This document shows, one piece after another, positions 11,703-15,154 of a stretch of 35,955 nucleotides of DNA. The DNA is from Deltaproteobacteria bacterium (GTDB taxonomy: Bacteria; Desulfobacterota; Binatia; HRBIN30; JACQVA1), in contig JACQVA010000145.1 of the NCBI GenBank assembly GCA_016210005.1, positions 1 through 35,955 of the forward strand, in the 5' to 3' direction. Each line of letters begins with the position of its first letter. Position 1 is the first letter of the stretch. The notes under the pieces are model-generated. The model saw nothing but the letters and a program-made list of their open reading frames with translations, was not told the DNA's origin and did not search any database. The position numbers and the translations under genes were made by a program.

Positions 11703-12467
11703 ATGCTGGCCAAACGCATCATCCCTTGCCTCGACGTCAAAGCTGGCCGCGTCGTCAAAGGCGTCAACTTCGTCGGCCTGCGCGATGCCGGCGACCCGGT
11801 CGAGATCGCCCAGCGTTACGACAGCGAGGGTGCCGACGAGCTGTGCTTCCTCGACATCACCGCCTCGCACGAACAGCGCAAGATCATTCTCGAGGTGGTC
11901 GCCCGCACCGCCGAGACGGTCTTCATGCCGCTGACCGTCGGCGGCGGTGTGCGCGAACTGCAAGACGTGCGCGACCTGCTCAACGCCGGCGCCGACAAGG
12001 TCTCCATCAATACCGCTGCGGTGCAAGCTCCCGACTTCGTGCGCGCCGCCGCCGAGAAGTTCGGCAGCCAGTGCATCGTCGTGGCGATCGATGCCAAGCA
12101 GGTCAGCAGTGCGCCGGAGCGCTGGCAGGTGTTCACCCACGGCGGGCGCAACCCCGCCGGTCTCGACGCCATCGAGTGGGCACAGCGGATGGAAGCGTAC
12201 GGCGCCGGTGAGATTCTGTTGACCAGCATGGATCGGGACGGAACCAAGGCCGGCTACGACATCGCCCTGACGCGAGCAATAGCCGGCGCCGTGCGCGTGC
12301 CGGTGATCGCCTCGGGCGGCGTCGGCACGCTCGCACACATCTACGAAGGCTTGAGCGCCGGCGGCGCAACCGCGGCCCTGGCCGCCTCCATCTTCCACTA
12401 CCGCGAGTACACCATCCGCCAGTGCAAGGAATACTTGGCCGAGCGCGGCGTGCCGGTGCGCCTGTGA
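11703..12467 (+). CDS. hisF: imidazole glycerol phosphate synthase, cyclase subunit
   Basis: A 254-residue (beta/alpha)8 barrel that cyclises PRFAR with ammonia from HisH to give IGP and AICAR. Catalytic aspartates D11 ([15 protein letters not shown]) and D130 (VVAIDAK) are present, as are LTVGGGVR and IASGGVGT phosphate loops. The length matches the family. AAGGT lies upstream of the ATG. It is the last recognisable his gene in the cluster: no hisI or hisE follows, and a stem-loop starts at its stop codon. Confidence 0.96.
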
Positions 12468-12585: not shown

Positions 12586-13263
12586 ATGCCGGACCACGCC
12601 GATCTTCTCAACGAGGCCCGCGAGGCGATGCTCGATACCGCCGCGCTGCAGCTGCGGTTGTTTCATGAATGGAAGCAGGGCCGAGCCGCACCAAGCGAGC
12701 GCGCAACCGCTCCCGCGCCGCCGCCCCCGGCAGCGGCGGCCGCAATCCCCGATCTCGTTTTCGACCTCGCCCGGCTCTCGCTGCAAAGCTACCAGCAGTG
12801 GCTGAAGATCACATCGAAACACCTCGACGGCATCGTGGGACAACTGCGCGGCGCCACCGCCGCGCACACCGCCGAGGCTCCGCTGCTGCCACGCATCGTC
12901 CTCGAGGTCTCGGGCAAGCCGGGGGAAGCGGTTACGACGGTGCCATTTCGCGTTGCCAACCCTTTTCGGGAACCGATCGACGTATCGTTCGGCAGCCCGG
13001 GGTTTCGCCGGATTGGGGATGCGGGCGAATCCGCCGAGCCGTTCTACGCCGCCATCGAGTACTTGCGCGCGGCCGACCCGCCGCCGGCGCCGCTGCGGCC
13101 GGGCGAGAACGCCCGCCTGGCGCCGGCCGAGCAAGTCACGTTACAGGCGCGAATCCCGCTGAGCGGGCAGTTCCAGAGCGGGCAGCAGTACTTGGGCGAA
13201 GCCTACGTGCTGTCGAAGGGCCGCGCCTCGGGAATCGTGCGCATCAAAGTCGCGGTCCTGTGA
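12586..13263 (+). CDS. unrecognised protein: helical N-terminus, Pro/Ala linker, C-terminal Ig-like beta domain
   Basis: A 225-residue protein I do not recognise. Residues 1-30 form an amphipathic helix (NEAREAMLDTAALQLRLFHEW) and residues 35-53 a Pro/Ala linker. Residues 54-90 form a second amphipathic helix (DLARLSLQSYQQWLKITSKH). From about 100 to the end is a beta-rich domain resembling an Ig-like or NEW3-like sandwich (RIVLEVSGKPGEAVTTVPF). No signal peptide is seen, so it is probably cytoplasmic. A good Shine-Dalgarno sequence (AGGGGG) precedes the ATG. The paired helices are reminiscent of surface-coating phasin-like proteins, but that is only a guess. Its stop overlaps the next gene by 4 bp (GTGA), so the two are translationally coupled. 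Confidence 0.75.
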   Translation: MPDHADLLNEAREAMLDTAALQLRLFHEWKQGRAAPSERATAPAPPPPAAAAAIPDLVFDLARLSLQSYQQWLKITSKHLDGIVGQLRGATAAHTAEAPLLPRIVLEVSGKPGEAVTTVPFRVANPFREPIDVSFGSPGFRRIGDAGESAEPFYAAIEYLRAADPPPAPLRPGENARLAPAEQVTLQARIPLSGQFQSGQQYLGEAYVLSKGRASGIVRIKVAVL

Positions 13264-13676
13264 GCCGACCACGCCGCAGCACGCGCCGCGCCTCGCCGGC
13301 GAGGCCGCCGGATGAAGCCCCGTGCCTGGTCTTGAGCCCGCCGGACGATCCGGTCATCCGCGTCCTGCGTCATGCAGCGTTGTTGCTGGTGAAGCACCCG
13401 GTTGCCGCGCAAGCCGCGTTTACCGCGCTGGTGGCTGAAGGACGTCGCTTTGCCGCAACGCCGGAAGGAGGCCGATGGAAAGCGGCGCTGGCGCATTCGG
13501 AACTGGTCCGCCGCGGCCACGCGCTCTGGGAAGGCTCGCTGCTGAAGACGCTCGAAGAGGGTGCCGAGACACCGATCCCGACGGCGATCCTCGAGGCCAT
13601 CATTCAGGCGGCGTGCCACCCCGACACGACCGCGCTGCTGCAACGGGTCCTGAGCCATGACCGCACCGATTCATGA
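13260..13676 (+). CDS. unrecognised small helical protein
   Basis: A 138-residue protein beginning at a GTG that overlaps the previous stop codon (GTGA). The first 20 residues are basic and low-complexity. The remainder is predicted helical, with segments such as DDPVIRVLRHAALLLVKHPVAAQ and PTAILEAIIQAA. It has no signal peptide, no cysteine motif and no enzyme motif. The frame is open upstream of 13260 too, but the upstream part runs antiparallel to no known domain and overlaps the first gene of the operon, so I take the coupled GTG. Its end overlaps the next gene by 20 bp. The function is unknown and must be judged with its neighbours. Confidence 0.6.
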   Translation: MSRPRRSTRRASPARPPDEAPCLVLSPPDDPVIRVLRHAALLLVKHPVAAQAAFTALVAEGRRFAATPEGGRWKAALAHSELVRRGHALWEGSLLKTLEEGAETPIPTAILEAIIQAACHPDTTALLQRVLSHDRTDS

Positions 13677-14061
13677 GCTGCACAACGCCTTCGACGAGCG
13701 CAACATGTTCTTGCAGGTTGCCCTCGGGCTGATTTCGTTCTGCCGGCAAATCGAGGCAGGCGTGGCCATGCAGGCCTCGTTGCTGAGCCGCGTTGAAGGT
13801 TCGCCCATGCCCTCAGCGGGCGAGCTCATTGCCGACAGCACTCTCGAGACCGCCGGCGCGGCCGACCCTGCGTGTGTCCGTACGCCTGCGGGGGAACTGG
13901 CGCCACCCGCAGGAGAAAGCCCGGTGCTGGCAGCGGTGCTCGGCCTGGTGGCGTTCTCGCAGCAGCTCCTGCTGCACGCCGAGCGGGCGAGCCGAGAGCC
14001 GGCCCCGGCGCCGCGGGCAACGCGCGCGCGACGTCCTCGCTTGCGGAGACTGCTTGCGTAG
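13657..14061 (+). CDS. unrecognised small helical protein with internal duplication
   Basis: A 134-residue protein starting at an ATG inside the end of the previous gene. Two similar hydrophobic helical segments are visible: VALGLISFCRQIEAG near residues 21-35 and AVLGLVAFSQQLLLH near 92-106. Both fit an (A/V)LGL(I/V)xFxxQ pattern and are joined by a Pro/Ala-rich linker. The tail is Arg-rich. This looks like an ancient internal repeat making two membrane- or surface-associated helices. I know no family with this layout. The next gene begins immediately after or overlapping its stop codon, completing a four-gene coupled unit. Confidence 0.6.
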   Translation: MTAPIHELHNAFDERNMFLQVALGLISFCRQIEAGVAMQASLLSRVEGSPMPSAGELIADSTLETAGAADPACVRTPAGELAPPAGESPVLAAVLGLVAFSQQLLLHAERASREPAPAPRATRARRPRLRRLLA

Positions 14062-14083
14062 TATCGCGCTCAGCGGAGGCGGA

Positions 14084-15154
14084 GTGTCCGCAGACCGCTG
14101 CGTGCAGCCGGCGGCGTCAGCCATAGCGGCTGCCATCGCCGCCACCGATTATACGCGCCGCTCGCCGCTGGCCATCGGTGGGCGGGGTGGTCACAAGGAG
14201 TGGCAGCACTTCGTGATTCTGGCATCCGGGATGGACCTGCTGGTCAACTTCAGCCTCTGCGATGACACGCGCGGCGTTGCGGCACCCGGCTCTGAGCTTC
14301 CGCGCATCGTGCTCATCGTCAACGACGGCGAGTGGGACGGTGACGTGGAGACCTTCGCCGCCAACGAAGTGATGGTCCGCGGCGGCGGCATCGACTTCGC
14401 CTTTGCGCGCAACCGGCTGGTCTTTGACCGCGGCCGCTTTCGCTTGTCGGTGGCCTTGCGCCAGCGACCGGTGGTGCTCGATCTCGAACTGACGCCGGTG
14501 ACCTACCCAGCCCACATCCCCAGCATTGCGATGCTCGATGGGCCGCCGCTGCACTGGACGGTAGTGCCACGACTGCGCGCCAGCGGCACCGTGACGGTCA
14601 ACGGGCGCACCCACGAGCTGCACGACGAGCCCGCGTACCACGACCACAACTGGGGCCATTTCCTGTGGGGGCACGACATCTCGTGGGAGTGGAGCTTCGT
14701 GCTGCCGGACGACTCAGCGGTGCCTTGGAGCCTGACCTTCTTGCGTCTATCCGATCGCGTGCGCGGTACGGCCCTGGCACAGGACATCCTGGTGTGGCGA
14801 GGTAAGCACTTGATCGAGGTCTTCCGCGAGCGGGACGTTGTCTTCGACACTGCCCTGGCGCACCTGCGCTCCGAGCCGCTCTTCAAGATACCGCGGGTGA
14901 TGGCGCTGCTCGCGCCCGAGTCGGCTGCCGATATCCCGGCGCGCTTCGCCGTGCGCGGCCGCACTTGGCGCGATTGGATCGAGTGCGCCAGCACGCCGCA
15001 GGCGGTGGCGCAGGTGCTGATTCCGAACGACACCAACCTCGGCGTGACCATCTTCAACGAGGTGTCCGCGCACAGTCAGGTGCGCGGGTGCATTGCCGGC
15101 GAAGAGATCTGCTTCAGCGGCCGCTCGACGATGGAGTTCATCCGCCACGTCTAG
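14084..15154 (+). CDS. CrtC/AttH-like lipocalin-fold protein (carotenoid hydratase-related family)
   Basis: A 356-residue protein from the GTG at 14084, which has GGAGG four bases upstream. A TTG at 14054 overlapping the previous stop is an alternative. It contains the hallmark YHDHNWGH (in DEPAYHDHNWGHFLWGHD), which I associate with the CrtC/AttH (hydroxyneurosporene synthase-like) double-lipocalin family. An N-terminal sandwich holds WQHFVILASGMDLLVNFSL and a C-terminal one holds GVTIFNEVSAHSQVRG. CrtC enzymes add water to carotenoid double bonds, but many relatives act on other lipids or are uncharacterised, and no carotenoid genes are nearby. It probably binds a hydrophobic ligand. It ends the four-gene unit and converges on the HIT gene 35 bp away. 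Confidence 0.65.
   Translation: MSADRCVQPAASAIAAAIAATDYTRRSPLAIGGRGGHKEWQHFVILASGMDLLVNFSLCDDTRGVAAPGSELPRIVLIVNDGEWDGDVETFAANEVMVRGGGIDFAFARNRLVFDRGRFRLSVALRQRPVVLDLELTPVTYPAHIPSIAMLDGPPLHWTVVPRLRASGTVTVNGRTHELHDEPAYHDHNWGHFLWGHDISWEWSFVLPDDSAVPWSLTFLRLSDRVRGTALAQDILVWRGKHLIEVFRERDVVFDTALAHLRSEPLFKIPRVMALLAPESAADIPARFAVRGRTWRDWIECASTPQAVAQVLIPNDTNLGVTIFNEVSAHSQVRGCIAGEEICFSGRSTMEFIRHV

Follow-up and report, generated by a model that had tools for sequence, protein, structure and literature searches.

Carotenoid 1,2-hydratases of the CrtC type (PF07143 and PF17186) are among the described proteins closest to the genes analysed here. Essential residues of such hydratases are His239-x-Trp241 and, in the enzyme RgCrtC, the pair Tyr266-x-Asp268 (PMC4717167); the C20 compound geranylgeraniol was converted to some extent by CrtCs (PMC6013536). 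Further systems with which comparison is possible are the geranylgeranyl diphosphate (GGPP) synthases of PF00348, the tocopherol cyclases of PF14249, the TOMM kinase/cyclase STAND regulators of TIGR03903 and the family 2 encapsulin terpene systems. The locus in question lies in a stretch of 35,955 nucleotides, hereafter the window, which is contig JACQVA010000145.1 of a Deltaproteobacteria bacterium (assembly GCA_016210005.1). It comprises four genes, coding for the small proteins P1, P2 and P3 and for a CrtC-like protein, and represents a shortened second copy, or satellite, of a longer isoprenoid operon, a relationship invisible to the first-pass annotation, which was made from the window sequence alone. 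The features of the locus are as follows.

P1, 12586..13263, plus strand: 225 aa; a pair of long helices at residues 4-33 and 50-92, followed by a PapD/Ig-like beta-sandwich.
P2, 13260..13676, plus strand: 138 aa; GTG start; all-helical; the marker gene of the operon.
P3, 13657..14061, plus strand: 134 aa; a FLxxALGLxSFxxQ-like helical motif occurs twice.
Shine-Dalgarno-like sequence AGCGGAGG, 14072..14079, plus strand: precedes the GTG at which the CrtC-like gene begins.
CrtC-like gene, 14084..15154, plus strand: 356 aa; distant CrtC/AttH lipocalin homologue; invariant YHDHNWG.

The four open frames and the overlaps claimed by the first-pass annotation were found again when the coordinates were re-read from the sequence: P1 and P2 overlap by 4 bp (GTGA) and P2 and P3 by 20 bp, while the best start of the CrtC-like gene is the GTG at 14084 behind GGAGG, 22 bp past the P3 stop. 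The gene hisF ends at 12467, 118 bp ahead of P1. A promoter/terminator scan of the locus gave no site above chance level.

The genome of the window (5.9 Mb, 97.6% complete), searched with the window region as query, contains a paralogous set on contig C127 (locus L005:4165-10634, genome G000). Its seven genes, all in the same direction and almost gapless, code for a polyprenyl (GGPP-type) synthase, P1, P2, P3, the CrtC-like protein, an SCP2-like protein and a flavin adenine dinucleotide (FAD) oxidoreductase of 771 aa, in this order. The synthase matches Pfam PF00348 (trans-polyprenyl synthases) with an E-value of 3.1e-59, and the FAD protein is likewise named by Pfam. The SCP2-like protein reached 13.2 bits against PF02036, under the Pfam cut-off of 21.3, and its best solved relative is an SCP2 domain at E 0.056, hence the label "SCP2-like" only. 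The window and C127 copies share 36% identity in P1, 57% in P2, 51% in P3 and 57% in the CrtC-like protein, and on a tree of CrtC-like proteins the two are sisters with support of 100/100. The link to an apolar metabolite made by the first-pass annotation gains from the three further genes of the full operon, those for the GGPP-type synthase, the SCP2-like protein and the FAD oxidoreductase; judged from these sequences, the four genes probably make or handle an undescribed isoprenoid lipid.

A scan of genome contigs with both CrtC-like proteins yielded 80 loci, and in nearly all of them tblastn placed P2 beside the CrtC-like gene; in most cases the synthase preceded this group, and the SCP2-like and FAD genes followed it. 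This order recurs in Myxococcota, in Mycobacterium and other Actinomycetota (where the loci are mostly from Mycobacterium), in one Binatia metagenome-assembled genome (MAG) and in some Pseudomonadota, and an Anaerolineae MAG carries the same set with no FAD gene detected. As the CrtC-like gene had served as seed here, the test was run again from P2 alone: all 23 loci newly fetched by two such searches (L120-L142, of which L120 had already been met) have a CrtC-like gene as well as a synthase. The operon, of about seven to eight genes, thus spans several phyla, and three of its families are without a Pfam or NCBIfam model. The co-occurrence of the four genes, which the first-pass annotation had named as a check, is borne out by their being neighbours in related operons elsewhere. 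P1, P2, P3 and the CrtC-like gene are genes rather than chance open reading frames, because they have a paralogous set, ratios of nonsynonymous to synonymous substitution (dN/dS) as given below, and the same order in several phyla.

P2 was present in 22 of 148 genomes sampled from the Mycobacterium genus group, in 8 of 235 from the phylum of Sorangium and in 1 of 395 from the phylum of the window, namely the window's own genome, and it was not found in 57 nearer relatives of that genome; these large scans scored few candidates per genome, and the absences are approximate. Since P2 occurs in one genome of the phylum and in none of the relatives, the distribution suggests that the operon was acquired horizontally in the window's genome. 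The predicted translational coupling is itself conserved across the operon loci, because 4-bp overlaps of the NTGA type recur at most junctions: of 79 junctions each, 64 of those into P2, 58 of those from P2 to P3 and 64 of those from P3 to the CrtC-like gene are of this type, counts that are not independent, as many of the loci are mycobacterial. In Mycobacterium lepraemurium (L078 / L113) the operon looks pseudogene-like, the P2 match crossing two stops and the CrtC-like match being shortened.

No description of the operon was found in the literature (open-access papers only). A paper on M. marinum idsB2, considered as a possible description, treats a mevalonate operon instead. The enzymes belong to known superfamilies, and the three small families and the combination are new to Pfam, NCBIfam and the open-access literature found.

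The operon synthase is predicted to be a GGPP synthase from its two Asp-rich motifs, both retained, and from its GGPP synthase-like profile, which is nearest to the solved GGPP synthases 1wmw (E 1.3e-71) and 1wy0. Upstream lies 'NAFLIHDD', and the Ala-Phe pair before the first Asp-rich motif matches the pattern that gives C20 products in avian farnesyl diphosphate synthase mutants. Unlike described GGPP synthases, the protein falls below every NCBIfam equivalog cut-off, and the window copy has none. The phytoene/squalene synthase family PF00494 gave no match in the window's genome while seven controls were positive, so GGPP is probably not used there for carotenoids or squalene.

By homology, the CrtC-like protein is a predicted member of the CrtC/AttH lipocalin superfamily. 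In pairwise comparison by hhalign, its profile aligned with PF07143/PF17186 proteins at 95% (E 3.5e-8, 234 columns; five proteins, with PF07143 identity checked for three), and the Asp of YHDHNWG fell on an invariant Asp of those proteins. The Tyr and Asp of this Y-x-D motif are invariant in 34 CrtC-like relatives, and all 105 of the 105 loci have YHDHNWG, a motif that had partly served to select those loci that were seeded by CrtC. The motif resembles Tyr266-x-Asp268 of RgCrtC, an equivalence that rests on motif spacing and hhalign and not on alignment with a real carotenoid hydratase. In contrast to CrtC proper, the window protein does not reach the PF07143 gathering cut-off, the family is unlisted among those matching the 34 relatives, and the CrtC-like protein keeps company with a GGPP-type synthase, here in a genome where no phytoene synthase was detected. 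A PF07143 search of the window's genome was empty with the control silent there, although the model did give matches in another search, through which all five of the proteins compared by hhalign had been obtained. Weak Pfam matches were to tocopherol cyclase and DUF2804. The former (PF14249) was the best sub-threshold match, found in 8 of 34 members with a best E-value of 5.7e-5, and in the window's genome it surrounds the AYHDHNWG motif; however, the window protein and its paralogue are both below the Pfam cut-off, and no homogentisate prenyltransferase was recognised in the operon. The profile had no match among PDB sequences, and a plasmid search found no CrtC-like protein. A relationship to the SCP2-like protein was considered and rejected by profile-profile comparison. 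Directly behind the FAD gene of the operon in the L024 genome stands a gene for a true CrtC/AttH protein with PF07143/PF17186 (L149:1039-2157).

Profile scans agree with the first-pass annotation that the three small proteins are unrecognised: P1-P3, and the P2 relatives scanned with them, had nothing above cut-off in Pfam, NCBIfam or PADLOC, and as regards anti-phage defence no PADLOC model was matched by P1-P3 or the CrtC-like protein. The structural claims of that annotation fared unevenly. The helices and beta-sandwich of P1 reappear in an AlphaFold model with a mean predicted local distance difference test score (pLDDT) of 80.5 and sandwich blocks mostly at about 90 or above, whose fold matches are generic PapD/ASH/Ig-like sandwiches only, whereas the dominance of amphipathic helices was not upheld, the hydrophobic moments of P1-P3 being mostly not above those of shuffled sequences. 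No clear transmembrane segment was seen in P1-P3. P1 is duplicated in one operon locus, and profile-profile comparison found it unrelated to P2. P2 is predicted as a seven-helix protein (pLDDT 77); a fold search with its model gave no PDB fold match, a single match lying at E 7.4, and VIA gave none. Its profile hits to vinculin and flap endonuclease among PDB sequences (E 0.004-0.06) were dismissed as chance helical matches. The two helical motif copies of P3 are centred on LGLxS. Two lineage-specific variants were observed: the Anaerolineae P1 (L026:8301-9242) ends in a helix-hairpin-helix-like segment (DDLTRLKGVGPQFAAKLAQAGI), and the Sorangium P3 (L013:9141-9974) has many tandem APATQPGLG-like repeats between the two helical motifs.

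A STAND regulator lies within 6 kb of the operon in 44 of 45 mycobacterial loci and in 19 of 37 others, the latter including the two copies of the window's genome, which have none, and several loci ending at contig ends. A large Ser/Thr kinase-AAA_16 (STAND) protein is often found in convergent orientation just after the FAD gene, and in mycobacterial loci an AAA_16-GAF-guanylate cyclase lies just upstream of the operon. Such kinases are common in myxobacteria, so some of these neighbours may be there by chance, but their position is regular. In domain composition they resemble the TIGR03903 regulators, but fall below the equivalog cut-off (162.9 vs 705.75).

Building on gene content and order, coupling, conservation, the synthase motifs, the remote CrtC homology with its retained Asp and the sister copies, we infer the following for the physiological product, the later reactions, complex formation, localisation and the interplay of the two copies. 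The synthase would make GGPP; P1, with its long helices and sandwich, P2 and P3 would be made in coupled amounts from their overlapping genes, and together they would form a scaffold that keeps the enzymes and their product on a membrane or lipid surface. For the CrtC-like lipocalin, the proposed role is to act on a C20 prenyl substrate as acid catalyst or else to carry it; as catalyst it would protonate a terminal double bond through the Y-x-D aspartate to give a hydrated or cyclised prenyl product, whose saturation the FAD enzyme would alter and which the SCP2-like protein would carry. The window copy, lacking a synthase, SCP2-like and FAD gene of its own, must therefore depend on the other set or on other enzymes, and would supplement the complete set on C127 with additional or modified subunits of the scaffold and of the CrtC-like protein. 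Most likely, P1-P3 would scaffold a membrane- or lipid-associated assembly turning GGPP into an undescribed isoprenoid, and in this operon the lipocalin fold of CrtC may have been put to a new use, with C20 prenyl compounds as substrates. To the reading as a whole, with the window genes as the second copy of an undescribed isoprenoid operon, P1-P3 as scaffold and the CrtC-like protein as catalyst, we give about an even chance. More tentatively, and with less than even confidence, P1-P3 may be three undescribed families that build a novel signal-controlled assembly, be it a scaffold, a filament or a compartment, in which C20 isoprenoids of a new class are made; it would be shared by myxobacteria and mycobacteria and present twice in the window's genome. 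The operon predicts an isoprenoid lipid or assembly testable in myxobacteria that grow in culture and in non-pathogenic mycobacteria.

Several observations weigh against this reading. The window copy itself consists of P1-P2-P3-CrtC-like only, and no STAND regulator stands beside either copy in its genome. No FAD gene was seen at the loci of Sorangium, Anaerolineae and UBA981 or at those of the alphaproteobacterial type. P1 is weakly conserved and is missing or replaced in mycobacteria and Sorangium, which makes a universal scaffold role for it uncertain. In an alignment that held no real carotenoid CrtC, an invariant Trp lies 27 residues ahead of the Tyr with no conserved His two positions before it, and a counterpart of CrtC His239 is not evident in the family from such a comparison. 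Among 29 other cluster genomes, PF00494 was above cut-off in 26 and without match in two, so that C30/C40 isoprenoids may be linked to the operon there.

P1-P3 could instead form a phasin-like coat of an apolar inclusion, made of isoprenoid or some other neutral lipid; the CrtC-like protein would then bind a ligand and not be an enzyme. Small helical proteins, the long helices of P1 and the isoprenoid and SCP2-like gene context would suit such a coat. Plant plastoglobules, which contain tocopherol cyclase, a member of the Pfam family to which the CrtC-like protein comes closest, offer an analogy only. They also contain fibrillins (PMC12419240). However, Pfam and NCBIfam scans matched no phasin or other inclusion-protein family, the hydrophobic moments are mostly no higher than in shuffles, and the invariant Y-x-D aspartate fits catalysis; a coat is rather unlikely but still a serious rival.

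If the window copy were a functionless, decaying duplicate and the C127 set alone worked, the missing synthase, SCP2-like and FAD genes, the strong divergence of P1 and the lack of P2 among the 57 near relatives would be accounted for. But all four window frames are intact, the conserved residues, overlaps and ribosome-binding site are all kept, and between the window and C127 copies dN/dS is 0.39 for P2, 0.26 for P3 and 0.42 for the CrtC-like gene against 1.06-2.15 in shifted frames, values that are rough because dS between the copies is high. The signal is weaker in P1, with 0.64 against 0.85-1.2. Purifying selection, on the absence of which the first-pass annotation would have given up its proposal, is thus seen in three genes and more weakly in P1. 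Plesiocystis also has two P2-CrtC modules, one of them apart from the enzyme genes as in the window. Because of the selection signal a dead duplicate is unlikely, and from these sequence comparisons the window copy is probably a functional paralogue under purifying selection.

A carotenoid module, with 1,2-hydratase activity in the CrtC-like protein and carotenoid desaturase activity in the FAD protein, would agree with the remote CrtC homology, with the frequent PF00494 matches in other cluster genomes and with the N-terminus of the FAD protein, which resembles HpnE/CrtD/zeta-carotene desaturases. This last similarity is, however, confined to the dinucleotide-binding end, the CrtC-like protein is below Pfam detection of CrtC, no phytoene synthase was recognised within the operons, and no phytoene/squalene synthase was matched in the window's genome or in two other cluster genomes; a carotenoid role in the window's genome is unlikely, and the module as a whole decidedly so. 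It is very improbable that terpenes are made in a protein-shelled nanocompartment or filament whose shell consists of P1 and structural proteins particular to each lineage and whose cargo is the synthase. For it speak the best NCBIfam match of the synthase, to the polyprenyl transferase cargo of family 2 encapsulins, the sandwich fold in the P1 model, the duplication of P1 in one locus, and the repeat-rich, structural-looking proteins added in some loci. But the cargo match is far below its cut-off (190.7 vs 450 bits), P1 is not universal, no capsid-like fold was seen, and no SrpI-like shell gene was found in the window's genome, in a search in which no control genome was positive. Searches of that genome with PF19307 and PF19086 were empty with controls silent too, so no absence is inferred.

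Further proteins accompany the operon in particular lineages. In the window's genome, a 145-aa protein with no Pfam match follows the FAD gene of the C127 set (L005:3707-4144). A mycobacterial family beginning MYLSAERVA... lies just upstream of the synthase (L050:7376-8161, L027:7305-8114, L078:7785-8117); its members have 261-269 aa where complete, L078 having only a 110-aa frame, and the L050 member, which was scanned, had no Pfam or NCBIfam match. Perhaps this family stands in for P1 in mycobacteria. Alphaproteobacterial-type and Anaerolineae loci have extra upstream proteins (L072:6507-8589, L073:6343-7715, L084:3191-4529, L026:5173-7201) of which some are rich in repeats, with GGMRTELA repeats in L072 and L073 and Ser/Asn/Asp-rich sequences in L026 and L084, and others are further sandwich-like proteins.

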